From assembly GCF_036373705.1 (NCBI RefSeq), contig NC_089851.1:56314997-56378996 (forward strand): a stretch of 64,000 nt of DNA, written 5' to 3'. The position numbers were made by a program, and so were the translations under genes. Source of the DNA: Amia ocellicauda (lineage: Eukaryota; Chordata; Actinopteri; Amiiformes; Amiidae). Shown here piece by piece: positions 1 through 64,000 of the stretch (position 1 is its first letter; every line of letters begins with the position of its first letter). The notes under the pieces are model-generated. The model saw only the letters and a list, made by a program, of their open reading frames with translations, made no database searches and was not told where the DNA came from.

Positions 1-3000
1 TTGATATCTAACTCTCTTGCTTGCTATCGCTCCCCCAATGGTCAGTAGCATAGTAGCATAACAGCAGATCACGGACCACTGTCACTCAGATGCTTGCCTT
101 GCCGTCCATCCATCCATCCATCTATCTATCTATCTATCAATGACTCTCGATATCTAACTCTCTTGCTTGCTATCGCTCCCCCAATGGTCAGTAGCATAGT
201 AGCATAACAGCAGATCACGGACCACTGTCAATCAGATGCTTGCCTTGCCGTCCATCCATCCATCTATCTATCTATCTATCTATGACTCTTGATATCTAAC
301 TCTCTTGCTTGCTATCGCTCCCCCAATGGTCAGTAGCATTGTAGCATAACAGCAGATCACGGACCAATGTCAATCAGATGCTTGCCTTGCCGTCCATCCA
401 TCCATCTATCTATCTATCTATCTATGACTCTCGATATCTAACTCTCTTGCTTGCTATCGCTCCCCCAATGGTCAGTAGCATAGTAGCATAACAGCAGATC
501 ACGGACCACTGTCAATCAGATGCTTGCCTTGCCGTCCATCCATCCATCCATCTATCTATCAATCTATCAATGACTCTCGATATCTAACTCTCTTACTTGC
601 TATCGCTCCCCCAATGGTCAGTAGCATAGTAGCATAACAGCAGATCACGGACCACTGTCAATCAGATGCTTGCCTTGCCGTCCATCCATCCATCCATCTA
701 TCTATCTATCTATCAATGACTCTCGATATCTAACTCTCTTACTTGCTATCGCTCCCCCAATGGTCAGTAGCATAGTAGCATAACAGCAGATCACGGACCA
801 CTGTCAATCAGATGCTTGCCTTGCCGTCCATCCATCCATCTATCTATCTATCTATCTATGACTCTTGATATCTAACTCTCTTGCTTGCTATCGCTCCCCC
901 AATGGTCAGTAGCATAGTAGCATAACAGCAGATCACGGACCACTGTCACTCAGATGCTTGCCTTGCCGTCCATCCATCCATCCATCTATCTATCTATCTA
1001 TCAATGACTCTCGATATCTAACTCTCTTGCTTGCTATCGCTCCCCCAATGGTCAGTAGCATAGTAGCATAACAGCAGATCACGGACCACTGTCAATCAGA
1101 TGCTTGCTTTGCCGTCCATCCATCCATCTATCTATCTATCTATCTATGACTCTTGATATCTAACTCTCTTGCTTGCTATCGCCCCCCCAATGGTCAGTAG
1201 CATAGTAGCATAACAGCAGATCACGGACCACTGTCAATCAGATGCTTGCCTTGCCGTCCATCCATCCATCTATCTATCTATCTATCTATCTATGACTCTC
1301 GATATCTAACTCTCTTGCTTGCTATCGCTCCCCCAATGGTCAGTAGCATAGTAGCATAACAGCAGATCACGGACCACTGTCAATCAGATGCTTGCCTTGC
1401 CGTCCATCCATCCATCTATCTATCTATCAATCTATGACTCTCGATATCTAACTCTCTTGCTTGCTATCGCTCCCCCAATGGTCAGTAGCATAGTAGCATA
1501 ACAGCAGATCACGGACCACTGTCAATCAGATGCTTGCCTTGCCGTCCATCCATCCATCTATCTATCAATCTATCAATCTATCAATGACTCTCGATATCTA
1601 ACTCTCTTACTTGCTATCGCTCCCCCAATGGTCAGTAGCATAGTAGCATAACAGCAGATCACGGACCACTGTCAATCAGATGCTTGCCTTGCCGTCCATC
1701 CATCCATCCATCTATCTATCTATCTATCAATGACTCTCGATATCTAACTCTCTTACTTGCTATCGCTCCCCCAATGGTCAGTAGCATAGTAGCATAACAG
1801 CAGATCACGGACCACTGTCAATCAGATGCTTGCCTTGCCGTCCATCCATCCATCTATCTATCTATCTATCTATGACTCTTGATATCTAACTCTCTTGCTT
1901 GCTATCGCTCCCCCAATGGTCAGTAGCATAGTAGCATAACAGCAGATCACGGACCACTGTCACTCAGATGCTTGCCTTGCCGTCCATCCATCCATCCATC
2001 TATCTATCTATCTATCAATGACTCTCGATATCTAACTCTCTTGCTTGCTATCGCTCCCCCAATGGTCAGTAGCATAGTAGCATAACAGCAGATCACGGAC
2101 CACTGTCAATCAGATGCTTGCCTTGCCGTCCATCCATCCATCTATCTATCTATCTATCTATGACTCTTGATATCTAACTCTCTTGCTTGCTATCGCTCCC
2201 CCAATGGTCAGTAGCATTGTAGCATAACAGCAGATCACGGACCAATGTCAATCAGATGCTTGCCTTGCCGTCCATCCATCCATCTATCTATCTATCTATC
2301 TATGACTCTCGATATCTAACTCTCTTGCTTGCTATCGCTCCCCCAATGGTCAGTAGCATAGTAGCATAACAGCAGATCACGGACCACTGTCAATCAGATG
2401 CTTGCCTTGCCGTCCATCCATCCATCCATCTATCTATCAATCTATCAATGACTCTCGATATCTAACTCTCTTACTTGCTATCGCTCCCCCAATGGTCAGT
2501 AGCATAGTAGCATAACAGCAGATCACGGACCACTGTCAATCAGATGCTTGCCTTGCCGTCCATCCATCCATCCATCTATCTATCTATCTATCAATGACTC
2601 TCGATATCTAACTCTCTTGCTTGCTATCGCTCCCCCAATGGTCAGTAGCATAGTAGCATAACAGCAGATCACGGACCACTGTCAATCAGATGCTTGCTTT
2701 GCCGTCCATCCATCCATCTATCTATCTATCTATCTATGACTCTTGATATCTAACTCTCTTGCTTGCTATCGCCCCCCCAATGGTCAGTAGCATAGTAGCA
2801 TAACAGCAGATCACGGACCACTGTCAATCAGATGCTTGCCTTGCCGTCCATCCATCCATCTATCTATCTATCTATCTATCTATGACTCTCGATATCTAAC
2901 TCTCTTGCTTGCTATCGCTCCCCCAATGGTCAGTAGCATAGTAGCATAACAGCAGATCACGGACCACTGTCAATCAGATGCTTGCCTTGCCGTCCATCCA

Positions 3001-4948
3001 TCCATCTATCTATCTATCAATCTATGACTCTCGATATCTAACTCTCTTGCTTGCTATCGCTCCCCCAATGGTCAGTAGCATAGTAGCATAACAGCAGATC
3101 ACGGACCACTGTCAATCAGATGCTTGCCTTGCCGTCCATCCATCCATCCATCTATCTATCAATCTATCAATGACTCTCGATATCTAACTCTCTTACTTGC
3201 TATCGCTCCCCCAATGGTCAGTAGCATAGAAGCATAACAGCAGATCACGGACCACTGTCAATCAGATGCTTGCCTTGCCGTCCATCCATCCATCCATCTA
3301 TCTATCTATCTATCAATGACTCTCGATATCTAACTCTCTTACTTGCTATCGCTCCCCCAATGGTCAGTAGCATAGTAGCATAACAGCAGATCACGGACCA
3401 CTGTCAATCAGATGCTTGCCTTGCCGTCCATCCATCCATCTATCTATCTATCTATCTATGACTCTTGATATCTAACTCTCTTGCTTGCTATCGCTCCCCC
3501 AATGGTCAGTAGCATAGTAGCATAACAGCAGATCACGGACCACTGTCACTCAGATGCTTGCCTTGCCGTCCATCCATCCATCCATCTATCTATCTATCTA
3601 TCAATGACTCTCGATATCTAACTCTCTTGCTTGCTATCGCTCCCCCAATGGTCAGTAGCATAGTAGCATAACAGCAGATCACGGACCACTGTCAATCAGA
3701 TGCTTGCCTTGCCGTCCATCCATCCATCTATCTATCTATCTATCTATGACTCTTGATATCTAACTCTCTTGCTTGCTATCGCTCCCCCAATGGTCAGTAG
3801 CATTGTAGCATAACAGCAGATCACGGACCAATGTCAATCAGATGCTTGCCTTGCCGTCCATCCATCCATCTATCTATCTATCTATCTATGACTCTCGATA
3901 TCTAACTCTCTTGCTTGCTATCGCTCCCCCAATGGTCAGTAGCATAGTAGCATAACAGCAGATCACGGACCACTGTCAATCAGATGCTTGCCTTGCCGTC
4001 CATCCATCCATCCATCTATCTATCAATCTATCAATGACTCTCGATATCTAACTCTCTTACTTGCTATCGCTCCCCCAATGGTCAGTAGCATAGTAGCATA
4101 ACAGCAGATCACGGACCACTGTCAATCAGATGCTTGCCTTGCCGTCCATCCATCCATCCATCTATCTATCTATCTATCAATGACTCTCGATATCTAACTC
4201 TCTTACTTGCTATCGCTCCCCCAATGGTCAGTAGCATAGTAGCATAACAGCAGATCACGGACCACTGTCAATCAGATGCTTGCCTTGCCGTCCATCCATC
4301 CATCTATCTATCTATCTATCTATGACTCTCGATATCTAACTCTCTTGCTTGCTATCGCTCCCCCAATGGTCAGTAGCATAGTAGCATAACAGCAGATCAC
4401 GGACCACTGTCAATCAGATGCTTGCCTTGCCGTCCATCCATCCATCCATCTATCTATCAATCTATCAATGACTCTCGATATCTAACTCTCTTACTTGCTA
4501 TCGCTCCCCCAATGGTCAGTAGCATAGTAGCATAACAGCAGATCACGGACCACTGTCAATCAGATGCTTGCCTTGCCGTCCATCCATCCATCCATCTATC
4601 TATCTATCTATCAATGACTCTCGATATCTAACTCTCTTACTTGCTATCGCTCCCCCAATGGTCAGTAGCATAGTAGCATAACAGCAGATCACGGACCACT
4701 GTCAATCAGATGCTTGCCTTGCCGTCCATCCATCCATCTATCTATCTATCTATCTATGACTCTCGATATCTAACTCTCTTGCTTGCTATCGCTCCCCCAA
4801 TGGTCAGTAGCATAGTAGCATAACAGCAGATCACGGACCACTGTCAATCAGATGCTTGCCTTGCCGTCCATCCATCCATCTATCTATCTATCTATCTATG
4901 ACTCTCGATATCTAACTCTCTTGCTTGCTATCGCTCCCCCAATGGTCA
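1..4948. repeat. Satellite array segment A (distal-type monomers)
   Basis: Head-to-tail monomers of about 142-150 bp with no gene between them. Each unit starts GACTCTYGATATC, passes through a core with an internal 8-bp direct repeat (GTAGCATA twice) and ends with (CCAT)2-4(CTAT)2-6, often with CAAT interruptions. The array is cut by the window start. Marker variants recur at fixed distance: GCTTGCTTTGCC at 1103 and 2693, and a C7 run at 1182 and 2772, which shows an 11-monomer block of about 1,590 bp. No frame stays open because monomer lengths are not constant multiples of three. Non-coding satellite DNA; any function is unknown. Confidence 0.97.
1101..3030. repeat. 11-monomer higher-order repeat, about 1,590 bp
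   Basis: Three independent marker variants in this stretch repeat at the same offset: the CTTGCTTTGCC change (1101 and 2691), the run of seven C (about 1182 and 2772) and the tail CTATCAATCTATGACTC (1421 and 3011). The offset, 1,590 bp, equals 11 monomers. Another marker, GGACCAATGTC, lies at 361, 2239 and 3825, so neighbouring blocks have gained or lost monomers. This is the expected trace of unequal exchange between blocks rather than single monomers. Confidence 0.75.
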
Positions 4949-5048
4949 CGTATGTTGCATTCAACAACAAAGAAAATCGTGTGCTGGAAATGATTTTTGG
5001 CAACTGTGAAGGAACTGCACGACTGCAGCAACCACAACACCTCTGTCT

Positions 5049-5122
5049 GTCTCTGTGGCGCAATCGGTCAGCGTGTTTGGCTGTTAACCAAAAGGATGGT
5101 GGTTTGAATCCACCCAGGGACG
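5049..5122 (+). tRNA. tRNA-Asn-GTT: tRNA-Asn (anticodon GTT), probably decayed: C56 lost
   Basis: Would decode Asn AAC/AAU codons. The cloverleaf folds well: acceptor GTCTCTG with CAGGGAC (one U-G), anticodon stem TTTGG/CCAAA around CTGTTAA, anticodon GTT at 5083-5085, T stem GGTGG/CCACC, discriminator G. No intron and no encoded CCA. The A box TGGCGCAATCGG is good. The T loop reads TTTGAAT instead of TTCGAAT, so the nearly invariant C56 (position 5105) is T. This damages both the G19-C56 elbow pair and the core of the B box that TFIIIC binds. A second change makes D-stem pair 10-25 G-U. Both are CpG to TpG changes. Convergent with tRNA-Thr(TGT). Likely a pseudogene or very weak gene; the identity of the family is certain. 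Confidence 0.93.
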
Positions 5123-5128
5123 GCCCAC

Positions 5129-5132
5129 TTTT
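5129..5132 (+). terminator. Pol III T4 terminator of island-1 tRNA-Asn
   Basis: TTTT begins 7 nt after the discriminator base, a normal position for RNA polymerase III termination. It is followed by a C-rich run. Confidence 0.75.
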
Positions 5133-5286
5133 CCCCCCGCCCCTTGTTATTGTTTCTACTTCTGGCGGACAGCTTGCCAGACTGTGGCTACAGTAACCTT
5201 AAGCTGCTTGCTGTGGATGGCCATCTTGCAAAAATGTATTGAGCGTTTAGAAACTTCCTTTCCATTGCCTAGGCCAACATAAACCA

Positions 5287-5360
5287 AGGCACTGCTGGGA
5301 GTCAAACCCAGGGTTTCCTGTTTACAAGACAGGCGCTTTGACCAACTAAGCCACGGTGCC
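5287..5360 (-). tRNA. tRNA-Thr-TGT: tRNA-Thr (anticodon TGT), probably decayed: C56 lost and acceptor mismatch
   Basis: Would read Thr ACA (and ACG) codons. Read on -: acceptor GGCACCG with CAGTGCC, D stem GCTT/AAGC, anticodon stem CCTGT/ACAGG around CTTGTAA, anticodon TGT (complement of 5324-5326), discriminator T. Two defects are visible: a C6-A67 mismatch in the acceptor stem, shared by all six copies in the window, and C56 changed to T at 5304 (GGTTTGAC), seen only in this island and again a CpG change. The nearest T run downstream on - lies about 52 nt away (complement of 5230-5234), so the 3' trailer would be long. It shares strand with tRNA-Thr(AGT) upstream, separated by the (AAAAC)n tract. 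Confidence 0.92.
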
Positions 5361-5402
5361 AGGACTCTCCCATTCCCCAGTGCCTACACTCAGGCGTAAG
5401 GC

Positions 5403-5433
<31 letters not shown>

Positions 5434-5498
5434 CAAAACAAAACAAAACAAAACAAAACAAAACAAAACAAAACAAAACAAAACAAAACAAAACAAAA
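5403..5498. repeat. (AAAAC)n microsatellite, about 19 units
   Basis: A nearly perfect 96-bp run of AAAAC units. On the - strand, on which both Thr tRNAs are transcribed, it reads (GTTTT)n: a dense series of T4 runs between the two genes, which could act as a back-up Pol III terminator for tRNA-Thr(AGT) read-through. Unit number differs between islands: about 19, 4, 19, 20, 23 and 17 for islands 1-6. The lysine/asparagine- or phenylalanine-rich open frames across it are translations of the repeat, not genes. Confidence 0.97.
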
Positions 5499-5784
5499 TC
5501 TGGATGCAGACTGCAACAAAGGAAGCACACAGAGGTGAAAACGTAAGGTTGACGGGAGCAACAAGCTCCCTGTTGCGACTGTCCAGGGGCGGCAATGGGA
5601 ATTGGACGTTGGCCGTAGCGCGTGTCCTTTGGGCTCTGGTTCTTCTTTACAAACCGGCGTCTGTCCAGTTGGCTTTCCGGTTCATTACGTCCTCTGATGG
5701 CTTTACGATAAGCCTATCTTGCTAAAACTGATGGTCGACAAAGCGGAAGCACAAGCTTCGCAAGGAGCACAGAAAGCCCGCCTA
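5499..5784. other. Unique island spacer with two overlapping hairpins
   Basis: This 286-bp single-copy-like sequence lies between the microsatellite and tRNA-Thr(AGT) and is conserved in all six islands. It holds a perfect 6-bp inverted repeat, GGGAGC-AACAA-GCTCCC (5554-5570), overlapped by a second one, GCAACA/TGTTGC (5558-5576); the two cannot form together. Near the tRNA is GAAGC-ACAA-GCTTC. A T4 on the - strand (complement of 5724-5727) is the first terminator-like run after tRNA-Thr(AGT), 57 nt away. A 73-codon frame at 5504-5725 is open in each copy but has no recognisable domain. I recognise no gene or transposon here. Confidence 0.6.
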
Positions 5785-5858
5785 AGGCACCGCTGGGATT
5801 TGAACCCAGGACCTCCTGTTTACTAGACAGGCGCTTTAACCAGCTAAGCCACGGCGCC
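5785..5858 (-). tRNA. tRNA-Thr-AGT: tRNA-Thr (anticodon AGT), intact
   Basis: Reads Thr ACU/ACC/ACA codons once A34 is deaminated to inosine, a eukaryotic decoding trait. On -: acceptor GGCGCCG/CGGTGCC (one G-U), A box TGGCTTAGCTGG with both G18 and G19, D stem GCTT/AAGC, anticodon stem CCTGT/ACAGG around CTAGTAA, anticodon AGT (complement of 5822-5824), T stem CTGGG/CCCAG, T loop TTCAAAT. R57 is A rather than G, which the B-box consensus allows. Discriminator T, no intron, no encoded CCA. All stems pair, so of the three genes in this island it is the one most likely to work. Confidence 0.96.
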
Positions 5859-5880
5859 AAATCTGCCGCTGCTGCTGCTG

Positions 5881-8800
5881 ATAGTAGAATAACAGCAGAT
5901 CACGGACCGCTGTCAATCAGGTTCTTGCCTTGCCATCCATCCATCCATCCATCTATCTATGACTCTCAATATCTAACTCTCTTGCTTGCTATCGCTCCCC
6001 CAATGGTCAGTAGCATAGTAGCATAACAGCAGATCACGGACCACTGTCAATCAGGTGCTTGCCTTGCCATCCATCCATCCATCTGTCTATCTATCTATCT
6101 ATGACTCTTGACATCTAACTCTCTTGCTTGCTATCGCTCCCCCAATGGTCAGAAGCAAAGTAGCATAACAGCAGATCACGGACCACTGTCAATCAGATGC
6201 TTGCCTTGCCGTCCATCCATCCATCCATCCATCTATCTATCTATGACTCTTGATATCTAACTCTCTTGCTTGCTATCGCTCCCCCAATGGTCAGAAGCAT
6301 AGTATCATAACAGCAGATCACAGACCACTGTCAATCAGATTCTTGCCTTGCCGTCCATCCATCCATCTATCTATCTATCTATCTATGACTCTTGATATCT
6401 AACTCTCTTGCTTGCTATCGCTCCCCCAATGGTCAGTAGCATTGTAGCATAACAGCAGATCACGGACCACTGTCAATCAGATGCTTGCCTTGCCGTCCAT
6501 CCATCCATCTATCTATCTATCTATCTATGACTCTTGATATCTAACTCTCTTGCTTGCTATCGCTCCCCCAATGGTCAGTAGCATTGTAGCATAACAGCAG
6601 ATCACGGACCACTGTCAATCAGATGCTTGCCTTGCCGTCCATCCATCCATCTATCTATCTATCTATCTATGACTCTTGATATCTAACTCTCTTGCTTGCT
6701 ATCGCTCCCCCAATGGTCAGTAGCATTGTAGCATAACAGCAGATCACGGACCACTGTCAATCAGATGCTTGCCTTGCCGTCCATCCATCCATCCATCCAT
6801 CTATCTATCTATGACTCTTGATATCTAACTCTCTTGCTTGCTATCGCTCCCCCAATGGTCAGAAGCAAAGTAGCATAACAGCAGATCACGGACCACTGTC
6901 AATCAGATGCTTGCCTTGCCGTCCATCCATCCATCCATCCATCTATCTATCTATGACTCTTGATATCTAACTCTCTTGCTTGCTATCGCTCCCCCAATGG
7001 TCAGTAGCATAGTAGCATAACAGCAGATCACGGACCACTGTCAATCAGATGCTTGCCTTGCCGTCCATCCATCCATCTATCTATCTATCTATCTATGACT
7101 CTTGATATCTAACTCTCTTGCTTGCTATCGCTCCCCCAATGGTCAGTAGCATAGTAGCATAACAGCAGATCACGGACCACTGTCACTCAGATGCTTGCCT
7201 TGCCGTCCATCCATCCATCCATCTATCTATCTATCTATCAATGACTCTCGATATCTAACTCTCTTGCTTGCTATCGCTCCCCCAATGGTCAGTAGCATAG
7301 TAGCATAACAGCAGATCACGGACCACTGTCAATCAGATGCTTGCCTTGCCGTCCATCCATCCATCTATCTATCTATCTATCTATGACTCTCGATATCTAA
7401 CTCTCTTGCTTGCTATCGCTCCCCCAATGGTCAGTAGCATAGTAGCATAACAGCAGATCACGGACCACTGTCAATCAGATGCTTGCCTTGCCGTCCATCC
7501 ATCCATCCATCTATCTATCAATCTATCAATGACTCTCGATATCTAACTCTCTTACTTGCTATCGCTCCCCCAATGGTCAGTAGCATAGTAGCATAACAGC
7601 AGATCACGGACCACTGTCAATCAGATGCTTGCCTTGCCGTCCATCCATCCATCTATCTATCTATCTATCTATGACTCTTGATATCTAACTCTCTTGCTTG
7701 CTATCGCTCCCCCAATGGTCAGTAGCATTGTAGCATAACAGCAGATCACGGACCACTGTCAATCAGATGCTTGCCTTGCCGTCCATCCATCCATCTATCT
7801 ATCTATCTATCTATGACTCTTGATATCTAACTCTCTTGCTTGCTATCGCTCCCCCAATGGTCAGTAGCATTGTAGCATAACAGCAGATCACGGACCACTG
7901 TCAATCAGATGCTTGCCTTGCCGTCCAAACATCCATCTATCTATCTATCTATCTATGACTCTTGATATCTAACTCTCTTGCTTGCTATCGCTCCCCCAAT
8001 GGTCAGTAGCATTGTAGCATAACAGCAGATCACGGACCACTGTCAATCAGATGCTTGCCTTGCCGTCCATCCATCCATCTATCTATGACTCTTGATATCT
8101 AACTCTCTTGCTTGCTATCGCTCCCCCAATGGTCAGTAGCATTGTAGCATAACAGCAGATCACGGACCACTGTCAATCAGATGCTTGCCTTGCCGTCCAT
8201 CCATCCATCTATCTATCTATCAATGACTCTCGATATCTAACTCTCTTGCTTGCTATCGCTCCCCCGATGGTCAGTAGCATAGTAGCATAACAGCAGATCA
8301 CGGACCACTGTCAATCAGGTGCTTGCCTTGCCGTCCATACATCCATCTGTCTATCTATCTATCTATGACTCTTGACATCTAACTCTCTTGCTTGCTATCG
8401 CTCCCCCAATGCTCAGAAGCAAAGTAGCATAACAGCAGATCACGGACCACTGTCAATCAGATGCTTGCCTTGCCGTCCATCCATCCATCTATCTATCTAT
8501 CTATCTATGACTCTTGATATCTAACTCTCTTGCTTGCTATCGCTCCCCCAATGGTCAGTAGCATTGTAGCATAACAGCAGATCACGGACCACTGTCAATC
8601 AGATGCTTGCCTTGCCGTCCATCCATACATCTATCTATCTATCTATCTATGACTCTTGATATCTAACTCTCTTGCTTGCTATCGCTCCCCCAATGGTCAG
8701 TAGCATTGTAGCATAACAGCAGATCACGGACCACTGTCAATCAGATGCTTGCCTTGCCGTCCATCCATCCATCTATCTATCTATCTATCAATGACTCTCG

Positions 8801-9121
8801 ATATCTAACTCTCTTACTTGCTATCGCTCCCCCAATGGTCAGTAGCATAGTAGCATAACAGCAGATCACGGACCACTGTCAATCAGATGCTTGCCTTGCC
8901 GTCCATCCATCCATCCATCTATCTATCTATGACTCTTGTTATCTAACTCTCTTGCTTGCTATCGCTCCCCCAATGGTCAGTAGCATAGTAGCATAACAGC
9001 AGATCACGGAACACTGTCAATCAGATGCTTGCCTTGCCGTCCATCCATCCATCTATCTATCTATCTATCTATGACTCTCGATATCTAACTCTCTTGCTTG
9101 CTATCGCTCCCCCAATGGTCA
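5881..9121. repeat. Satellite array segment B (island-proximal monomers)
   Basis: 3,241 bp of monomers between islands 1 and 2, with the same 3,241-bp length as segment E in the second copy. It contains monomer types rare elsewhere: CAGGTGCTTG with tail CTGTCTATC, then GACATC plus GAAGCAAAG. The first unit after the island is the most diverged. One private change, CCGTCCAAACATCC at about 7921-7934, distinguishes it from segment E. No genes. Confidence 0.96.
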
Positions 9122-9221
9122 CGTATGTTGCATTCAACGACAAAGAAAATCGTGTGCTGGAAATGATTTTTGGCAACTGTGAAGGAACTGCATGACTGCA
9201 GCAACCAACACTCCTCTGTCT

Positions 9222-9295
9222 GTCTCTGTGGCGCAATCGGTCAGCGCGTTTGGCTGTTAACCAAAAGGATGGTGGTTCGAATCCACCCAGGGACG
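9222..9295 (+). tRNA. tRNA-Asn-GTT: tRNA-Asn (anticodon GTT), intact
   Basis: Canonical version of the gene: acceptor GTCTCTG/CAGGGAC, A box TGGCGCAATCGG, D stem GCGC/GCGC, anticodon loop CTGTTAA, T arm GGTGG-TTCGAAT-CCACC with C56 present, and B box GGTTCGAATCC. All stems pair, with one U-G in the acceptor. Together with its sister in island 5 it is the only tRNA-Asn in the window without a visible defect, so these two are the likely functional asparagine genes. Confidence 0.97.
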
Positions 9296-9301
9296 GCCCA
9301 C

Positions 9302-9305
9302 TTTT
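9302..9305 (+). terminator. Pol III T4 terminator of island-2 tRNA-Asn
   Basis: TTTT starting 7 nt past the tRNA 3' end, followed by a C run. Confidence 0.75.
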
Positions 9306-9459
9306 CCCCCCGCCCCTTGTTATTGTTTCTAATTCTGGCGGACAGCTTGCCAGACTGTGGCTACAGTAACCTTAAGCTGCTTGCTGTGGATGGCCATCTT
9401 GCAAAAATGTATTGAGCGTTTAGAAACTTCCTTTCCATTGCCTAGGCCAACATAAACCA

Positions 9460-9533
9460 AGGCACTGCTGGGAGTCGAACCCAGGGTTTCCTGTTTACAA
9501 GACAGGTGCTTTGACCAACTAAGCCACGGTGCC
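9460..9533 (-). tRNA. tRNA-Thr-TGT: tRNA-Thr (anticodon TGT), acceptor mismatch C6-A67
   Basis: Fold as in island 1 but with C56 kept (T loop TTCGACT). The acceptor stem has the shared C6-A67 mismatch. Position 26 is A instead of G (complement of 9507), also a CpG change; G26 is usually the m2,2G site but A is tolerated. It may still be transcribed because A and B boxes are intact. Whether the mismatch is tolerated in the mature tRNA cannot be judged from sequence. Confidence 0.93.
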
Positions 9534-9575
9534 AGGACTCTCCCATTCCCCAGTGCCTACACTCAGGCGTAAGGC

Positions 9576-9596
9576 AAAAAACAAAACAAAACAAAA
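9576..9596. repeat. (AAAAC)n microsatellite, contracted to about 4 units
   Basis: Only 21 bp, against 86-116 bp in the other five islands. The sister copy in island 5 is the longest of all (116 bp). Confidence 0.95.
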
Positions 9597-9882
9597 TCTG
9601 GATGCAGGCTGCAACAAAGGAAGCACACAGAGGTGAAAACCTAAGGTTGACGGGAGCAACAAGCTCCCTGTTGCGACTGTCCAGGGGCGGCAATGGGAAT
9701 TGGACGTTGGCCGTAGCGCGTGTCCTTTGGGTTCTGGTTCTTCTTTACAAACCGGCGTCTGTCCAGTTGGCTTTCCGGTTCATTACGTCCTCTGATGGCT
9801 TTACGATAAGCCTATCTTGCTAAAACTGATGGTCGACAAAGCGGAAGCACAAGCTTCGCAAGGAGCACAGAAAGCCCGCCTA

Positions 9883-9956
9883 AGGCACCGCTGGGATTTG
9901 AACCCAGGACCTCCTGTTTACTAGACAGGCGCTTTAAACAACTAAGCCACGGTGCC
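9883..9956 (-). tRNA. tRNA-Thr-AGT: tRNA-Thr (anticodon AGT), probably decayed: G19 lost
   Basis: Stems are all paired, and the acceptor is better than in island 1 (A4-U69 in place of G-U). The D loop, however, reads AGTTGTTTA instead of AGTTGGTTA: G19 is T (complement of 9938). G19 pairs with C56 in the tRNA elbow and belongs to the GG of the A box, so both folding and promoter strength should suffer. The same change is present in island 5, so it predates the 11.7-kb duplication. Confidence 0.92.
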
Positions 9957-9978
9957 AAATCTGCCGCTGCTGCTGCTG

Positions 9979-11310
9979 ATAGTAGAATAACAGCAGATCA
10001 CGGACCGCTGTCAATCAGGTTCTTGCCTTGCCGTCCATCCATCCATCCATCTATCTATGACTCTCAATATCTAACTCTCTTGCTTGCTATCGCTCCCCCA
10101 ATGGTCAGTAGCATAGTAGCATAACAGCAGATCACGGACCACTGTCAATCAGGTGCTTGCCTTGCCATCCATCCATCCATCTGTCTATCTATCTATCTAT
10201 GACTCTTGACATCTAACTCTCTTGCTTGCTATCGCTCCCCCAATGGTCAGAAGCAAAGTAGCATAACAGCAGATCACGGACCACTGTCAATCAGATGCTT
10301 GCCTTGCCGTCCATCCATCCATCCATCCATCTATCTATCTATGACTCTTGATATCTAACTCTCTTGCTTGCTATCGCTCCCCCAATGGTCAGTAGCATAG
10401 TATCATAACAGCAGATCACGGACCACTGTCAATCAGATGCTTGCCTTGCCGTCCATCCATCCATCTATCTATCTATCTATGACTCTTGATATCTAACTCT
10501 CTTGCTTGCTATCGCTCCCCCAATGGTCAGTAGCATTGTAGCATAACAGCAGATCACGGACCACTGTCAATCAGATGCTTGCCTTGCCGTCCATCCATCC
10601 ATCTATCTATCTATCTATCTATGACTCTCGATATCTAACTCTCTTGCTTGCTATCGCTCCCCCAATGGTCAGTAGCATTGTAGCATAACAGCAGATCACG
10701 GACCACTGTCAATCAGATGCTTGCCTTGCCGTCCATCCATCCATCCATCTATCTATCTATCTATCTATGACTCTTGATATCTAACTCTCTTGCTTGCTAT
10801 CGCTCCCCCAATGGTCAGTAGCATTGTAGCATAACAGCAGATCACGGACCACTGTCAATCAGATGCTTGCCTTGCCGTCCATCCATCCATCTATCTATCT
10901 ATCTATCAATGACTCTCGATATCTAACTCTCTTGCTTGCTATCGCTCCCCCAATGGTCAGTAGCATAGTAGCATAACAGCAGATCACGGACCACTGTCAA
11001 TCAGGTGCTTGCCTTGCCGTCCATCCATCCATCTGTCTATCTATCTATCTATGACTCTTGACATCTAACTCTCTTGCTTGCTATCGCTCCCCCAATGGTC
11101 AGAAGCAAAGTAGCATAACAGCAGATCACGGACAACTGTCAATCAGATGCTTGCCTTGCCGTCCATCCATCCATCCATCCATCTATCTATCTATGACTCT
11201 TGATATCTAACTCTCTTGCTTGCTATCGCTCCCCCAATGGTCAGTAGCATAGTATCATAACAGCAGATCACGGACCACTGTCAATCAGATGCTTGCCTTG
11301 CCGTCCATCC

Positions 11311-11372
<62 letters not shown>

Positions 11373-11421
11373 GACTCTCGATATCTAACTCTCTTGCTTG
11401 CTATCGCTCCCCCAATGGTCA
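9979..11421. repeat. Satellite array segment C
   Basis: 1,443 bp of monomers (about ten) between islands 2 and 3. It opens with the same diverged unit found after islands 1, 4 and 5 (GGACCGCTGTC) and closes with a monomer carrying a greatly lengthened CTAT tail. No genes. Confidence 0.96.
11313..11372. repeat. Expanded (CTAT)15 tail next to island 3
   Basis: 15 uninterrupted CTAT units, against two to six in nearly all other monomers. The sister site before island 6 has 14. On the - strand it is (GATA)n-type, with overlapping GATA motifs. The serine/isoleucine/tyrosine frame here is a repeat translation. Confidence 0.95.
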
Positions 11422-11521
11422 CGTATGTTGCATTCAACGACAAAGAAAATCGTGTGCTGGAAATGATTTTTGGCAACTGTGAAGGAACTGCACGACTGCA
11501 GCAACCAAAACACCTCTGTCT

Positions 11522-11595
11522 GTCACTGTGGCGCAATCGGTCAGCGCGTTTGGCTGTTAACCAAAAGGATGGTGGTTCGAATCCACCCAGGGACG
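11522..11595 (+). tRNA. tRNA-Asn-GTT: tRNA-Asn (anticodon GTT), acceptor mismatch at 4-69
   Basis: Same gene as in island 2 with one change: GTCACTG for GTCTCTG, so base 4 is A (11,525) opposite G69. This replaces a tolerated U-G wobble with an A-G mismatch in the middle of the acceptor stem. A box, B box (C56 present), anticodon arm and T arm are intact, so transcription should be normal but processing or stability could suffer. Confidence 0.95.
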
Positions 11596-11601
11596 GCCCA
11601 C

Positions 11602-11605
11602 TTTT
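11602..11605 (+). terminator. Pol III T4 terminator of island-3 tRNA-Asn
   Basis: TTTT 7 nt past the tRNA 3' end. Confidence 0.75.
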
Positions 11606-11759
11606 CCCCCCGCCCCTTGTTATTGTTTCTACTTCTGGCGGACAGCTTGCCAGACTGTGGCTACAGTAACCTTAAGCTGCTTGCTGTGGACGGCCATCTT
11701 GCAAAAATGTATTGAGCGTTTAGAAACTTCCTTTCCATTGCCTAGGCCAACATAAACCA

Positions 11760-11833
11760 AGGCACTGCTGGGAGTCGAACCCAGTGTTTCCTGTTTACAA
11801 GACAGGCGCTTTGACCAACTAAGCCACGGTGCC
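11760..11833 (-). tRNA. tRNA-Thr-TGT: tRNA-Thr (anticodon TGT), C6-A67 mismatch and C48A
   Basis: B box and C56 intact and position 26 is G. Besides the shared acceptor mismatch, base 48 is A instead of C (complement of 11,785). C48 normally forms the Levitt pair with G15, which is present here, so this tertiary contact is broken. The change is shared with island 6. Confidence 0.92.
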
Positions 11834-11875
11834 AGGACTCTCCCATTCCCCAGTGCCTACACTCAGGCATAAGGC

Positions 11876-11906
<31 letters not shown>

Positions 11907-11971
11907 CAAAACAAAACAAAACAAAACAAAACAAAACAAAACAAAACAAAACAAAACAAAACAAAACAAAA
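11876..11971. repeat. (AAAAC)n microsatellite, about 19 units
   Basis: 96 bp, the same length as in island 1. Its left flank reads GGCATAAGG where islands 1, 2, 4 and 5 have GGCGTAAGG, a CpG change. Confidence 0.96.
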
Positions 11972-12257
11972 TCTGGATGCAGGCTGCAACAAAGGAAGCA
12001 CACAGAGGTGAAAACGTAAGGTTTACGGGAGCAACAAGCTCCCTGTTGCGACTGTCCAGGGGCGGCAATGGGAATTGGACGTTGGCCGTAGCGCGTGTCC
12101 TTTGGGTTCTGGTTCTTCTTTACAAACCGGCGTCTGTCCAGTTGGCTTTCCGGTTCATTACGTCCTCTGATGGCTTTACGATAAGCCTATCTTGCTAAAA
12201 CTGATGGTCGACAAAGCGGAAGCACAAGCTTCGCAAGGAGCACAGAAAGCCCGCCTA

Positions 12258-12331
12258 AGGCACCGCTGGGATTTGAACCCAGGACCTCCTGTTTACTAGA
12301 CAGGCGCTTTAACCAACTAAGCCACGGCGCC
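12258..12331 (-). tRNA. tRNA-Thr-AGT: tRNA-Thr (anticodon AGT), intact
   Basis: As in island 1 but with D loop AGTTGGTTA (G18 and G19 present). Acceptor GGCGCCG/CGGTGCC, T loop TTCAAAT, discriminator T. No defect visible, so a likely functional threonine gene. Confidence 0.96.
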
Positions 12332-12353
12332 AAATCTGCCGCTGCTGCTGCTG

Positions 12354-16848: not shown

Positions 16849-16854
16849 GCCCAC

Positions 16855-54000: not shown

Positions 54001-57000
54001 GACCACTGTCAATCAGATGCTTGCCTTGCCGTCCATCCATCCATCCATCTATCTATCTATCTATCAATGACTCTCGATATCTAACTCTCTTACTTGCTAT
54101 CGCTCCCCCAATGGTCAGTAGCATAGTAGCATAACAGCAGATCACGGACCACTGTCAATCAGATGCTTGCCTTGCCGTCCATCCATCCATCTATCTATCT
54201 ATCTATCTATCTATGACTCTTGATATCTAACTCTCTTGCTTGCTATCGCTCCCCCAATGGTCAGTAGCATAGTAGCATAACAGCAGATCACGGACCACTG
54301 TCACTCAGATGCTTGCCTTGCCGTCCATCCATCCATCCATCTATCTATCTATCTATCAATGACTCTCGATATCTAACTCTCTTGCTTGCTATCGCTCCCC
54401 CAATGGTCAGTAGCATAGTAGCATAACAGCAGATCACGGACCACTGTCAATCAGATGCTTGCCTTGCCGTCCATCCATCCATCTATCCATCTACCTATCT
54501 ATGACTCTTGATATCTAACTCTCTTGCTTGCTATCGCTCCCCCAATGGTCAGTAGCATAGTAGCATAACAGCAGATCACGGACCACTGTCACTCAGATGC
54601 TTGCCTTGCCGTCCATCCATCCATCCATCTATCTATCTATCTATCAATGACTCTCGATATCTAACTCTCTTGCTTGCTATCGCTCCCCCAATGGTCAGTA
54701 GCATAGTAGCATAACAGCAGATCACGGACCACTGTCAATCAGATGCTTGCCTTGCCGTCCATCCATCCATCTATCTATCTATCTATCTATGACTCTTGAT
54801 ATCTAACTCTCTTGCTTGCTATTGCTCCCCCAATGGTCAGTAGCATTGTAGCATAACAGCAGATCACGGACCAATGTCAATCAGATGCTTGCCTTGCCGT
54901 CCATCCATCCATCTATCTATCTATCTATCTATGACTCTCGATATCTAACTCTCTTGCTTGCTATCGCTCCCCCAATGGTCAGTAGCATAGTAGCATAACA
55001 GCAGATCACGGACCACTGTCAATCAGATGCTTGCCTTGCCGTCCATCCATCCATCCATCTATCTATCAATCTATCAATGACTCTCGATATCTAACTCTCT
55101 TACTTGCTATCGCTCCCCCAATGGTCAGTAGCATAGTAGCATAACAGCAGATCACGGACCACCGTCAATCAGATGCTTGCCTTGCCGTCCATCCATCCAT
55201 CCATCTATCTATCTATCTATCAATGACTCTCGATATCTAACTCTCTTACTTGCTATCGCTCCCCCAATGGTCAGTAGCATAGTAGCATAACAGCAGATCA
55301 CGGACCACTGTCAATCAGATGCTTGCCTTGCCGTCCATCCATCCATCCATCTATCTATCAATCTATCAATGACTCTCGATATCTAACTCTCTTACTTGCT
55401 ATCGCTCCCCCAATGGTCAGTAGCATAGTAGCATAACAGCAGATCACGGACCACTGTCAATCAGATGCTTGCCTTGCCGTCCATCCATCCATCCATCTAT
55501 CTATCTATCTATCAATGACTCTCGATATCTAACTCTCTTACTTGCTATCGCTCCCCCAATGGTCAGTAGCATAGTAGCATAACAGCAGATCACGGACCAC
55601 TGTCACTCAGATGCTTGCCTTGCCGTCCATCCATCCATCCATCTATCTATCTATCTATCAATGACTCTCGATATCTAACTCTCTTGCTTGCTATCGCTCC
55701 CCCAATGGTCAGTAGCATAGTAGCATAACAGCAGATCACGGACCACTGTCAATCAGATGCTTGCCTTGCCGTCCATCCATCCATCTATCTATCTATCTAT
55801 CTATGACTCTCGATATCTAACTCTCTTGCTTGCTATCGCTCCCCCAATGGTCAGTAGCATAGTAGCATAACAGCAGATCACGGACCACTGTCAATCAGAT
55901 GCTTGCCTTGCCGTCCATCCATCCATCCATCTATCTATCAATCTATCAATGACTCTCGATATCTAACTCTCTTACTTGCTATCACTCCCCCAATGGTCAG
56001 TAGCATAGTAGCATAACAGCAGATCACGGACCACTGTCAATCAGATGCTTGCCTTGCCGTCCATCCATCCATCCATCTATCTATCTATCTATCAATGACT
56101 CTCGATATCTAACTCTCTTACTTGCTATCGCTCCCCCAATGGTCAGTAGCATAGTAGCATAACAGCAGATCACGGACCACTGTCAATCAGATGCTTGCCT
56201 TGCCGTCCATCCATCCATCTATCTATCTATCTATCTATCTATGACTCTTGATATCTAACTCTCTTGCTTGCTATCGCTCCCCCAATGGTCAGTAGCATAG
56301 TAGCATAACAGCAGATCACGGACCACTGTCACTCAGATGCTTGCCTTGCCGTCCATCCATCCATCCATCTATCTATCTATCTATCAATGACTCTCGATAT
56401 CTAACTCTCTTGCTTGCTATCGCTCCCCCAATGGTCAGTAGCATAGTAGCATAACAGCAGATCACGGACCACTGTCAATCAGATGCTTGCCTTGCCATCC
56501 ATCCATCCATCTATCCATCTACCTATTTATGACTCTTGATATCTAACTCTCTTGCTTGCTATCGCTCCCCCAATGGTCAGTAGCATAGTAGCATAACAGC
56601 AGATCACGGACCACTGTCAATCAGATGCTTGCCTTGCCGTCCATCCATCCATCCATCTATCTATCTATCTATCAATGACTCTCGATATCTAACTCTCTTG
56701 CTTGCTATCGCTCCCCCAATGGTCAGTAGCATAGTAGCATAACAGCAGATCTCGGACCACTGTCAATCAGATGCTTGCCTTGCCGTCCATCCATCCATCT
56801 ATCTATCTATCTATCTATGACTCTTGATATCTAACTCTCTTGCTTGCTATTGCTCCCCCAATGGTCAGTAGCATTGTAGCATAACAGCAGATCACGGACC
56901 AATGTCAATCAGATGCTTGCCTTGCCGTCCATCCATCCATCTATCTATCTATCTATCTATGACTCTCGATATCTAACTCTCTTGCTTGCTATCGCTCCCC

Positions 57001-57609
57001 CAATGGTCAGTAGCATAGTAGCATAACAGCAGATCACGGACCACTGTCAATCAGATGCTTGCCTTGCCGTCCATCCATCCATCCATCTATCTATCAATCT
57101 ATCAATGACTCTCGATATCTAACTCTCTTACTTGCTATCGCTCCCCCAATGGTCAGTAGCATAGTAGCATAACAGCAGATCACGGACCACTGTCAATCAG
57201 ATGCTTGCCTTGCCGTCCATCCATCCATCCATCTATCTATCTATCTATCAATGACTCTCGATATCTAACTCTCTTACTTGCTATCGCTCCCCCAATGGTC
57301 AGTAGCATAGTAGCATAACAGCAGATCACGGACCACTGTCAATCAGATGCTTGCCTTGCCGTCCATCCATCCATCCATCTATCTATCTATCTATCAATGA
57401 CTCTCGATATCTAACTCTCTTACTTGCTATCGCTCCCCCAATGGTCAGTAGCATAGTAGCATAACAGCAGATCACGGACCACTGTCAATCAGATGCTTGC
57501 CTTGCCGTCCATCCATCCACCCATCCATCTACCTATCTATGACTCTTGATATCTAACTCTCTTGCTTGCTATTGCTCCCCCAATGGTCAGTAGCATTGTA
57601 GCATAACAG

Positions 57610-59940
57610 CAGATCACGGACCAATGTCAATCAGATGCTTGCCTTGCCGTCCATCCATCCATCTATCTATCTATCTATCTATCTATGACTCTTGATATCT
57701 AACTCTCTTGCTTGCTATCGCTCCCCCAATGGTCAGTAGCATAGTAGCATAACAGCAGATCTCGGACCACTGTCAATCAGATGCTTGCCTTGCCGTCCAT
57801 CCATCCATCTATCTATCTATCTATCTATGACTCTTGATATCTAACTCTCTTGCTTGCTATTGCTCCCCCAATGGTCAGTAGCATTGTAGCATAACAGCAG
57901 ATCACGGACCAATGTCAATCAGATGCTTGCCTTGCCGTCCATCCATCCATCTATCTATCTATCTATCTATGACTCTCGATATCTAACTCTCTTGCTTGCT
58001 ATCGCTCCCCCAATGGTCAGTAGCATAGTAGCATAACAGCAGATCACGGACCACTGTCAATCAGATGCTTGCCTTGCCGTCCATCCATCCATCCATCTAT
58101 CTATCAATCTATCAATGACTCTCGATATCTAACTCTCTTACTTGCTATCGCTCCCCCAATGGTCAGTAGCATAGTAGCATAACAGCAGATCACGGACCAC
58201 TGTCAATCAGATGCTTGCCTTGCCGTCCATCCATCCATCCATCTATCTATCTATCTATCAATGACTCTCGATATCTAACTCTCTTGCTTGCTATCGCTCC
58301 CCCAATGGTCAGTAGCATAGTAGCATAACAGCAGATCACGGACCACTGTCAATCAGATGCTTGCCTTGCCGTCCATCCATCCATCCATCTATCTATCTAT
58401 CTATCAATGACTCTCGATATCTAACTCTCTTACTTGCTATCGCTCCCCCAATGGTCAGTAGCATAGTAGCATAACAGCAGATCACGGACCACTGTCAATC
58501 AGATGCTTGCCTTGCCGTCCATCCATCCATCCATCTATCTATCTATCTATCAATGACTCTCGATATCTAACTCTCTTACTTGCTATCGCTCCCCCAATGG
58601 TCAGTAGCATAGTAGCATAACAGCAGATCACGGACCACTGTCAATCAGATGCTTGCCTTGCCGTCCATCCATCCACCCATCCATCTACCTATCTATGACT
58701 CTTGATATCTAACTCTCTTGCTTGCTATTGCTCCCCCAATGGTCAGTAGCATTGTAGCATAACAGCAGATCACGGACCAATGTCAATCAGATGCTTGCCT
58801 TGCCGTCCATCCATCCATCTATCTATCTATCTATCTATCTATGACTCTTGATATCTAACTCTCTTGCTTGCTATCGCTCCCCCAATGGTCAGTAGCATAG
58901 TAGCATAACAGCAGATCTCGGACCACTGTCAATCAGATGCTTGCCTTGCCGTCCATCCATCCATCTATCTATCTATCTATCTATGACTCTTGATATCTAA
59001 CTCTCTTGCTTGCTATTGCTCCCCCAATGGTCAGTAGCATTGTAGCATAACAGCAGATCACGGACCAATGTCAATCAGATGCTTGCCTTGCCGTCCATCC
59101 ATCCATCTATCTATCTATCTATCTATGACTCTCGATATCTAACTCTCTTGCTTGCTATCGCTCCCCCAATGGTCAGTAGCATAGTAGCATAACAGCAGAT
59201 CACGGACCACTGTCAATCAGATGCTTGCCTTGCCGTCCATCCATCCATCCATCTATCTATCAATCTATCAATGACTCTCGATATCTAACTCTCTTACTTG
59301 CTATCGCTCCCCCAATGGTCAGTAGCATAGTAGCATAACAGCAGATCACGGACCACTGTCAATCAGATGCTTGCCTTGCCGTCCATCCATCCATCCATCT
59401 ATCTATCTATCTATCAATGACTCTCGATATCTAACTCTCTTGCTTGCTATCGCTCCCCCAATGGTCAGTAGCATAGTAGCATAACAGCAGATCACGGACC
59501 ACTGTCAATCAGATGCTTGCCTTGCCGTCCATCCATCCATCCATCTATCTATCTATCTATCAATGACTCTCGATATCTAACTCTCTTACTTGCTATCGCT
59601 CCCCCAATGGTCAGTAGCATAGTAGCATAACAGCAGATCACGGACCACTGTCAATCAGATGCTTGCCTTGCCGTCCATCCATCCACCCATCCATCTACCT
59701 ATCTATGACTCTTGATATCTAACTCTCTTGCTTGCTATTGCTCCCCCAATGGTCAGTAGCATTGTAGCATAACAGCAGATCACGGACCAATGTCAATCAG
59801 ATGCTTGCCTTGCCGTCCATCCATCCATCCATCTATCTATCTATCTATGACTCTCGATATCTAACTCTCTTGCTTGCTATCGCTCCCCCAATGGTCAGTA
59901 GCATAGTAGCATAACAGCAGATCACGGACCACTGTCAATC
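57610..59940. repeat. 8-monomer higher-order repeat, about 1,156 bp
   Basis: GATCTCGGACC at 57,758 and 58,914, each preceded by a CCAATGTC monomer with a long CTAT tail and followed by an ATTGCTCCC monomer. The 1,156-bp offset corresponds to eight monomers. Confidence 0.7.
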
Positions 59941-62900
59941 AGATGCTTGCCTTGCCGTCCATCCATCCATCCATCTATCTATCAATCTATCAATGACTCT
60001 CGATATCTAACTCTCTTACTTGCTATCGCTCCCCCAATGGTCAGTAGCATAGTAGCATAACAGCAGATCACGGACCACTGTCAATCAGATGCTTGCCTTG
60101 CCGTCCATCCATCCATCCATCTATTTATCTATCTATCAATGACTCTCGATATCTAACTCTCTTACTTGCTATCGCTCCCCCAATGGTCAGTAGCATAGTA
60201 GCATAACAGCAGATCACGGACCACTGTCAATCAGATGCTTGCCTTGCCGTCCATCCATCCATCTATCTATCTATCTATCTATCTATGACTCTTGATATCT
60301 AACTCTCTTGCTTGCTATCGCTCCCCCAATGGTCAGTAGCATAGTAGCATAACAGCAGATCACGGACCACTGTCACTCAGATGCTTGCCTTGCCGTCCAT
60401 CCATCCATCCATCTATCTATCTATCTATCAATGACTCTCGATATCTAACTCTCTTACTTGCTATCGCTCCCCCAATGGTCAGTAGCATAGTAGCATAACA
60501 GCAGATCACGGACCACTGTCAATCAGATGCTTGCCTTGCCGTCCATCCATCCATCCATCTATCTATCAATCTATCAATGACTCTCGATATCTAACTCTCT
60601 TACTTGCTATCGCTCCCCCAATGGTCAGTAGCATAGTAGCATAACAGCAGATCACGGACCACTGTCAATCAGATGCTTGCCTTGCCGTCCATCCATCCAT
60701 CCATCTATCTATCTATCTATCAATGACTCTCGATATCTAACTCTCTTACTTGCTATCGCTCCCCCAATGGTCAGTAGCATAGTAGCATAACAGCAGATCA
60801 CGGACCACTGTCACTCAGATGCTTGCCTTGCCGTCCATCCATCCATCCATCTATCTATCTATCTATCAATGACTCTCGATATCTAACTCTCTTGCTTGCT
60901 ATCGCTCCCCCAATGGTCAGTAGCATAGTAGCATAACAGCAGATCACGGACCACTGTCAATCAGATGCTTGCCTTGCCGTCCATCCATCCATCTATCTAT
61001 CTATCTATCTATGACTCTCGATATCTAACTCTCTTGCTTGCTATCGCTCCCCCAATGGTCAGTAGCATAGTAGCATAACAGCAGATCACGGACCACTGTC
61101 AATCAGATGCTTGCCTTGCCGTCCATCCATCCATCCATCTATCTATCAATCTATCAATGACTCTCGATATCTAACTCTCTTACTTGCTATCACTCCCCCA
61201 ATGGTCAGTAGCATAGTAGCATAACAGCAGATCACGGACCACTGTCAATCAGATGCTTGCCTTGCCGTCCATCCATCCATCCATCTATCTATCTATCTAT
61301 CAATGACTCTCGATATCTAACTCTCTTGCTTGCTATCGCTCCCCCAATGGTCAGTAGCATAGTAGCATAACAGCAGATCACGGACCACTGTCAATCAGAT
61401 GCTTGCCTTGCCGTCCATCCATCCATCTATCCATCTACCTATTTATGACTCTTGATATCTAACTCTCTTGCTTGCTATCGCTCCCCCAATGGTCAGTAGC
61501 ATAGTAGCATAACAGCAGATCACGGACCACTGTCAATCAGATGCTTGCCTTGCCGTCCATCCATCCATCTATCCATCTACCTATCTATGACTCTTGATAT
61601 CTAACTCTCTTGCTTGCTATCGCTCCCCCAATGGTCAGTAGCATAGTAGCATAACAGCAGATCTCGGACCACTGTCAATCAGATGCTTGCCTTGCCGTCC
61701 ATCCATCCATCTATCTATCTATCTATCTATGACTCTTGATATCTAACTCTCTTGCTTGCTATTGCTCCCCCAATGGTCAGTAGCATTGTAGCATAACAGC
61801 AGATCACGGACCAATGTCAATCAGATGCTTGCCTTGCCGTCCATCCATCCATCTATCTATCTATCTATCTATGACTCTCGATATCTAACTCTCTTGCTTG
61901 CTATCGCTCCCCCAATGGTCAGTAGCATAGTAGCATAACAGCAGATCACGGACCACTGTCAATCAGATGCTTGCCTTGCCGTCCATCCATCCATCCATCT
62001 ATCTATCAATCTATCAATGACTCTCGATATCTAACTCTCTTACTTGCTATCGCTCCCCCAATGGTCAGTAGCATAGTAGCATAACAGCAGATCACGGACC
62101 ACTGTCAATCAGATGCTTGCCTTGCCGTCCATCCATCCATCCATCTATCTATCTATCTATCAATGACTCTCGATATCTAACTCTCTTACTTGCTATCGCT
62201 CCCCCAATGGTCAGTAGCATAGTAGCATAACAGCAGATCACGGACCACTGTCAATCAGATGCTTGCCTTGCCGTCCATCCATCCATCCATCTATCTATCT
62301 ATCTATCAATGACTCTCGATATCTAACTCTCTTACTTGCTATCGCTCCCCCAATGGTCAGTAGCATAGTAGCATAACAGCAGATCACGGACCACTGTCAC
62401 TCAGATGCTTGCCTTGCCGTCCATCCATCCATCCATCTATCTATCTATCTATCAATGACTCTCGATATCTAACTCTCTTGCTTGCTATCGCTCCCCCAAT
62501 GGTCAGTAGCATAGTAGCATAACAGCAGATCACGGACCACTGTCACTCAGATGCTTGCCTTGCCGTCCATCCATCCATCCATCTATCTATCTATCTATCA
62601 ATGACTCTCGATATCTAACTCTCTTGCTTGATATCGCTCCCCCAATGGTCAGTAGCATAGTAGCATAACAGCAGATCTCGGACCACTGTCAATCAGATGC
62701 TTGCCTTGCCGTCCATCCATCCATCTATCTATCTATCTATCTATGACTCTTGATATCTAACTCTCTTGCTTGCTATTGCTCCCCCAATGGTCAGTAGCAT
62801 TGTAGCATAACAGCAGATCACGGACCAATGTCAATCAGATGCTTGCCTTGCCGTCCATCCATCCATCTATCTATCTATCTATCTATGACTCTCGATATCT

Positions 62901-64000
62901 AACTCTCTTGCTTGCTATCGCTCCCCCAATGGTCAGTAGCATAGTAGCATAACAGCAGATCACGGACCACTGTCAATCAGATGCTTGCCTTGCCGTCCAT
63001 CCATCCATCCATCTATCTATCAATCTATCAATGACTCTCGATATCTAACTCTCTTACTTGCTATCGCTCCCCCAATGGTCAGTAGCATAGTAGCATAACA
63101 GCAGATCACGGACCACTGTCAATCAGATGCTTGCCTTGCCGTCCATCCATCCATCCATCTATCTATCTATCTATCAATGACTCTCGATATCTAACTCTCT
63201 TACTTGCTATCGCTCCCCCAATGGTCAGTAGCATAGTAGCATAACAGCAGATCACGGACCACTGTCAATCAGATGCTTGCCTTGCCGTCCATCCATCCAT
63301 CTATCTATCTATCTATCTATCTATGACTCTTGATATCTAACTCTCTTGCTTGCTATCGCTCCCCCAATGGTCAGTAGCATAGTAGCATAACAGCAGATCA
63401 CGGACCACTGTCACTCAGATGCTTGCCTTGCCGTCCATCCATCCATCCATCTATCTATCTATCTATCAATGACTCTCGATATCTAACTCTCTTACTTGCT
63501 ATCGCTCCCCCAATGGTCAGTAGCATAGTAGCATAACAGCAGATCACGGACCACTGTCAATCAGATGCTTGCCTTGCCGTCCATCCATCCATCCATCTAT
63601 CTATCAATCTATCAATGACTCTCGATATCTAACTCTCTTACTTGCTATCGCTCCCCCAATGGTCAGTAGCATAGTAGCATAACAGCAGATCACGGACCAC
63701 TGTCAATCAGATGCTTGCCTTGCCGTCCATCCATCCATCCATCTATCTATCTATCTATCAATGACTCTCGATATCTAACTCTCTTACTTGCTATCGCTCC
63801 CCCAATGGTCAGTAGCATAGTAGCATAACAGCAGATCACGGACCACTGTCAATCAGATGCTTGCCTTGCCGTCCATCCATCCATCTATCCATCTACCTAT
63901 CTATGACTCTTGATATCTAACTCTCTTGCTTGCTATCGCTCCCCCAATGGTCAGTAGCATAGTAGCATAACAGCAGATCACGGACCACTGTCAATCAGAT

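Follow-up and report, generated by a model that had tools for sequence, protein, structure and literature searches.

Xenopus has tandemly arranged tRNA units as well as oocyte 5S DNA, and in Entamoeba the spacers of the tRNA gene arrays contain short tandem repeats. Here we describe a locus of Amia ocellicauda in which clusters of transfer RNA (tRNA) genes, referred to as islands, lie within a satellite array. The DNA analysed, hereafter the window, is a stretch of 64,000 nucleotides (C2:56,314,997-56,378,996) of a contig, C2, of 63,569,230 bases within a 988-Mb genome. The window belongs to a mosaic of about 8 Mb (C2:52.9-60.85 Mb). In addition to satellite and two types of island, this mosaic contains arrays of tRNA-Pro genes, diverged 5S repeats, other DNA including transposons, and gaps. 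Among known systems it is closest to the heterochromatic arm of zebrafish chromosome 4.

This zebrafish arm carries 10,396 of 22,275 tRNA genes (PMC3392230), and a survey of 2010 found 65% of the zebrafish tRNA genes and pseudogenes to be clustered (PMC2888827). Region-2 of chromosome 4 concentrates tRNA genes, maternal 5S genes, small nuclear RNA (snRNA) genes and the satellite MOSAT-2, and its tRNAs were proposed by the authors to be maternal (PMC11075544). In zebrafish, repetitive regions encode the isodecoders of the egg and early embryo, and the switching clusters given as exemplars include Thr-AGT/TGT/CGT (PMC11417395). The Amia domain resembles Region-2 in being a megabase region of one chromosome in which repetitive tRNA genes occur together with satellite, and it contains clusters of Thr genes, the family that in zebrafish provides some of these exemplar egg clusters. 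It differs in size, spanning about 8 Mb. In the pieces scanned, which amount to a few percent of the domain, no snRNA gene (U1, U6) scored above the Rfam gathering score.

The locus shares with Xenopus the arrangement of tandem units for RNA polymerase III (Pol III) with repetitive spacers, which in Xenopus are used in oocytes; however, there a single unit has a short subrepeated spacer, whereas here a variable number of 145-bp satellite copies separates the clusters. As in Entamoeba, tandem tRNA units are parted by tandem repeats. In contrast to the Entamoeba arrays, which also consist of tandem units (PMC2888827), the arrays here belong to an animal genome, and their spacer is a long satellite, which also occurs in blocks tens of kb long that contain no genes. 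Tandem tRNA genes are likewise found in the SYY cluster of Arabidopsis, which is heterochromatic, methylated and silent in most tissues but active in some cells (PMC12308677). SYY is a single cluster, and the abstract describing it mentions no satellite spacer, whereas in Amia satellite lies between the clusters.

Satellite and tRNA islands of the window

As assembled, the anatomy of the window is secure. An anchor scan of both strands of the whole window located 408 monomer starts on the plus strand and 0 on the minus strand, with spacings (n=407) of 146 bp in 165 cases, 142 bp in 159 and about 1 kb in six, the latter corresponding to the islands. There are 400 complete monomers of about 145 bp, arranged head-to-tail with none reversed and representing 110 distinct sequences, and the array is satellite DNA in the sense of a long head-to-tail array of near-identical monomers. 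No N bases were seen in the window. ARAGORN predicts 18 tRNA genes, i.e., six sets of Asn-GTT (+), Thr-TGT (-) and Thr-AGT (-), and the Rfam model RF00005 finds 18 tRNAs at the same positions with scores of 66-73 bits (window 1-26,000). The interiors of islands 1 to 6, measured from their junctions, are 934, 859, 934, 940, 954 and 924 bp long. The original prediction, made from the letters of the window, of some 400 monomers in the same orientation, interrupted by six blocks of 0.86-0.95 kb with three tRNA genes each and followed by 39.8 kb of pure satellite, is thus borne out. The features of the window are:

1..4946, plus strand: satellite block 1, monomers of about 145 bp
4947..5880, plus strand: island 1, with Asn(GTT) 5048-5125 (+), Thr(TGT) 5287-5360 (-) and Thr(AGT) 5785-5858 (-)
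5405-5498: (AAAAC)n run of island 1
5881..9119, plus strand: satellite block 2
9120..9978, plus strand: island 2, with Asn 9221-9298 (+), Thr(TGT) 9460-9533 (-) and Thr(AGT) 9883-9956 (-); short AAAAC run
9979..11419, plus strand: satellite block 3
11420..12353, plus strand: island 3, with Asn 11521-11598 (+), Thr(TGT) 11760-11833 (-) and Thr(AGT) 12258-12331 (-)
12354..16672, plus strand: satellite block 4, which copies most of block 1
16673..17612, plus strand: island 4, duplicate of island 1 (99.9%)
17613..20851, plus strand: satellite block 5, which copies block 2
20852..21805, plus strand: island 5, duplicate of island 2 (99.7%), with a longer AAAAC run
21806..23242, plus strand: satellite block 6, which copies block 3
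23243..24166, plus strand: island 6, duplicate of island 3 (99.8%)
11878-11971, 17129-17230, 21310-21423 and 23701-23784: AAAAC runs of other islands
24167..64000, plus strand: satellite of 39.8 kb, with no island
626..24166, plus strand: head-to-tail tandem duplication, unit of about 11.73 kb with three islands per copy

The six islands of the window are three islands copied by the 11.73-kb tandem duplication, because positions 626-9,596 match 12,354-21,328 (99.3% identity across an alignment of 8,991 columns, at an offset of 11,728), the island pairs 1/4, 2/5 and 3/6 are 99.7-99.9% identical while other pairs reach 98.1-98.8% (gaps excluded), and the string of monomer variants recurs in almost identical order in the second copy. 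The extent of the duplication was established by direct alignment for 626-9,596, by the island identities for the third island and by the monomer order for the remainder. The length of the AAAAC run varies among these near-identical islands, with 17 to 23 copies in five of them and few in island 2, and this run is a fast marker of exchange.

The satellite had also been described as highly ordered and as having a higher-order structure of its own. Such structure is real but local and shifting, not regular. When the best multimer period was compared with the 99% point of shuffled monomer orders in eight stretches, it lay above this point in seven, mostly by a small margin. A period of 11 monomers occurs at 1-4,950 (39% exact repeats vs 38%) and at 12,400-16,650 (33% vs 27%), and consecutive 10-kb pieces of the tail have periods of 8 and 13, 29, 10, and 34 monomers. 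At 5,900-9,100 no period rises above the shuffled orders, and across the eight stretches no single multimer period dominates the array, which is not a regular higher-order repeat. Local order was thus predicted correctly, but not its regularity. Two origins of the satellite were considered and rejected. Derivation from the tRNA island is contradicted by local scores of 16 and 18 between monomer and island against a shuffle mean of 18.3; the best local scores of the monomer with the tRNAs are only 10-15, i.e., no similarity beyond chance to tRNA or island was detected. As for a viral origin, a 29-base monomer probe gave 0 exact matches in IMG/VR.

One junction, two island types and the domain on C2

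All six islands of the window break the monomer at the identical point, after CAATGGTCA, and re-enter it near TAGTAG(A/C)ATAACAGC. Asn genes were then located by their own sequence, not by the junction, across the window and seven island-bearing stretches of 10 kb. All 36 (6 in the window and 30 in the stretches) lie 115-123 bases from the identical left junction, and two extra left junctions occur at stretch ends, with the Asn gene past the end. Because every Asn gene so located stands at the same satellite-island junction, a single founding junction with later co-amplification of cluster and satellite is strongly suggested by the sequence. Taken by their left junction from all fetched DNA, 42 island copies were obtained, of which 40 are distinct as some loci overlap the window. 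They fall into two types. Type I, the form of the window, accounts for 26 of the 40, and type II, with 14 copies all from 57.5 and 58.0 Mb, contains Asn-GTT and a Thr gene (anticodon CGT in 13 of the 14 and TGT in one), the third gene being absent. Type II islands are without the right part of the island and, judged by eye, re-enter the monomer a few bases from the type I point. At 57.5 and 58.0 Mb the islands are much more crowded, a 10-kb stretch having eight left junctions and the entire 64-kb window six.

The composite extends far beyond the window. With the island as query, the best 40 of 640 first-look candidates are all located on C2, between 53.52 and 59.59 Mb and in both orientations, and 38 of these 40 scored matches are outside the window. 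Further sampling of C2 used twenty 10-kb, twenty 2-kb and sixty 400-base stretches. Omitting the window and five stretches that were placed on known island matches, 85 probes fall at 52.85-60.85 Mb, of which 28 hit satellite, 11 Pro array, 5 gap and 41 other sequence, one of the latter (59.55 Mb) being partly Pro array. The last island start seen is at 60.85 Mb. None of the ten probes outside the domain (50-52.75 and 61-63.57 Mb of C2) contains satellite, island or Pro array. Probes at 56.16 and 56.45 Mb, neither of which is satellite, bound the satellite block around the window, if this block is unbroken. In eleven 10-kb grid stretches inside the domain ARAGORN predicts 37 tRNAs, which extrapolates roughly to about 2,700 tRNAs in 7.95 Mb (bootstrap 580-5,570), altered Pro copies counted in. 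The combination of clusters and satellite had been thought unusual and perhaps previously undescribed. The clusters do travel with the satellite, and no description of this composite appeared among the matches listed in an open full-text library without most subscription journals; nevertheless, in view of zebrafish chromosome 4, the composite is not unique in kind.

The tRNA-Pro(AGG) arrays of the domain are satellite-free and consist of tandem units of about 590 bp (C2:54.0-54.5, 55.25, 57.75 and 58.3 Mb; stretches L016, L038, L039, L043, L044 and L045). ARAGORN labels 11 of 24 predictions in the Pro-array pieces as Leu(GAG), an identity that we reject, these being Pro-AGG bodies with G for T at base 33. 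By pattern match this G is present in 10 of 18 Pro copies, and in L016 and L043 such copies are below the Rfam gathering score, as are two 79-base Pro calls in L016. At one place the Pro unit is interrupted by an open reverse transcriptase frame of 592 amino acids (L043:223-1998, C2:55.25 Mb), which starts some 100 bases away from a tRNA-Pro-like gene and has LINE-1-type ORF2 proteins as its best PDB matches; it possibly represents a long interspersed nuclear element (LINE) that targets tRNA arrays. Tc1-type transposase frames were also found, as was a CR1-like repeat at the contig end, both of which would point to a ray-finned fish, possibly a bowfin or gar. A 5S repeat of about 330 bp occurs at C2:53.60 Mb (two partial copies in 400 bases), with diverged 5S relatives at C2:59.0 and 55.10 Mb. 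Judged by eye, these relatives, 4 Mb apart (L026 ~2040; L067 ~290-330), are cut at a near-identical point and followed by the same non-5S sequence, which resembles the trace of a site-specific retrotransposon.

N runs occur inside the domain at C2:53.48, 54.25, 55.42, 55.92, 56.507, 58.20 and 59.30 Mb, and therefore the assembled order and length are uncertain. These gaps (five of the 85 probes, and parts of L016 and L021) would fit an assembly artefact, in which false joins or retained haplotypes had made the composite; such repeats are hard to assemble, and haplotype retention could account for the 11.73-kb duplication. However, one junction recurs at tens of places with varying island types, monomer numbers and AAAAC lengths, and no N was seen in the window itself, so that we consider an artefact very improbable.

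The structure of the domain also bears on whether it is the centromere or pericentromere of C2, with the 145-bp repeat as centromeric satellite and the tRNA islands as boundaries. The monomer is nucleosome-sized, the satellite forms blocks of at least tens of kb and a single chromosomal region is involved. In fission yeast, centromeres carry tRNA clusters, and tRNA genes act there as boundaries. Against this interpretation, the islands are dispersed within the arrays, at up to 8 per 10 kb, rather than placed at their edges, and the region is interrupted by Pro arrays, transposons and 5S sequences. A centromeric identity is therefore unlikely.

A possible egg-type reserve or hitchhiking

We tentatively favour a reading, by analogy with zebrafish, in which the domain would be a CpG-methylated, egg-type reserve of Pol III genes for Asn, Thr and Pro tRNAs. 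In this model, a tRNA cluster joined the satellite once, at the break after CAATGGTCA, and the composite would then have multiplied by unequal exchange, segmental duplication and inversion. The domain would normally be CpG-methylated and silent, the satellite would keep the array homogeneous and packaged, and the well-formed tRNA genes seen in the scored copies would serve oogenesis as an Asn/Thr/Pro reserve, in line with the proposal for the arm of zebrafish chromosome 4. The competing explanation, which we regard as a serious possibility, is plain hitchhiking: a cluster was trapped a single time in a satellite monomer and then multiplied through unequal exchange, without selection for its products, the arrays being silent heterochromatin and the tRNAs looking intact only since the amplification is recent. 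An egg-type role is ranked only slightly above hitchhiking.

The state of the genes speaks in part for a reserve. The seven 10-kb stretches, five of them positioned on islands already known, contain 72 tRNA matches, two of them clipped by stretch ends, and the 70 whole ones all remain well formed (52-73 bits vs a gathering score of 29). Hitchhiking is less readily reconciled with this, with the spread of the scored island copies (best 40 of 640) over 6 Mb and with the megabase-scale clustering of several tRNA families, i.e., Asn/Thr islands and Pro arrays, along with 5S repeats in one domain (52.9-60.85 Mb). In the 40 distinct islands all 106 tRNA copies are 74 nt long and no indels were seen in tRNA bodies; this is a weak sign because the spacers outside the AAAAC run show just four distinct indels.

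Variation is concentrated at CpG sites, at which it is about four to five times that of non-CpG sites (type I, 20/80 vs 37/760 other sites; type II, 12/57 vs 26/524). These counts define a CpG site as CG in any sequence, which favours variable sites, and under the stricter definition by majority base the excess persists (type I, 18/76 vs 39/764; type II, 10/52 vs 28/529). The excess is consistent with germ-line DNA methylation, and it is because mutations concentrate at CpG that the domain is taken to be CpG-methylated. The anticodon stem of the Asn gene, TTTGG/CCAAA in type I, differs by T-A/C-G between the island types in a manner that appears compensatory, but this was not used as evidence because both steps are CpG changes.

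Several observations weigh against an egg-type reserve, and some of them favour hitchhiking. Selection on tRNA bodies was sought and not found: in type I islands 19 of 222 tRNA sites are variable vs 38 of 618 in the spacer (p=0.22), type II points the opposite way with tRNAs varying more than spacer (16/148 vs 22/435, p=0.02), and nucleotide diversity (pi) is not lower in tRNA than in spacer in either type. These p values are rough, as sites rather than events were counted and the copies are related. CpG decay reaches into the tRNA genes and their B box, the TTCGA motif of Asn having T for C in all 14 type II sequences and in 6 of the 26 of type I. By eye, a T4 run closely follows the Asn gene only, the Thr genes reaching the first run of at least four Ts roughly 55-60 nt downstream. 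Hitchhiking would also agree with the near-identical 11.73-kb duplication and with the G at base 33 of the pattern-matched Pro copies. In zebrafish itself, tRNA levels are not predicted by how many tRNA genes there are, closed chromatin of chromosome 4 being one of the reasons offered, and most predicted tRNA genes are without accessible chromatin in early embryos (EMBO J 2024, PMC11574265). Finally, among the best 47 of 47,274 first-look 5S candidates none is on C2 (21 are on C8, 20 of these at 7.38-9.81 Mb, and small contigs carry the other 26), whereas the maternal 5S genes of zebrafish share the arm with the tRNA genes. The egg-type analogy may thus be said to have one matching detail, the Thr isoacceptors, and one mismatch, the place of the best-scoring 5S genes.

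A more specific form of the egg-type reading, which we hold to be doubtful, is that the satellite-tRNA composite would be the amplification unit of an independent, non-zebrafish vertebrate egg-type tRNA chromosome domain, the satellite acting as a recombination and packaging spacer that allows the Thr/Asn isodecoder set to grow, to vary its anticodon (Thr TGT and CGT) and to be switched en bloc in oocytes.

In all, the common junction together with the two island types provides a clean system for following the co-amplification of a gene cluster and a satellite. The domain may be a second example among animals of megabase tRNA arrays occurring together with satellite and 5S repeats. If so, comparison with it could test the idea, put forward for zebrafish, that the egg is served by repetitive tRNA genes.

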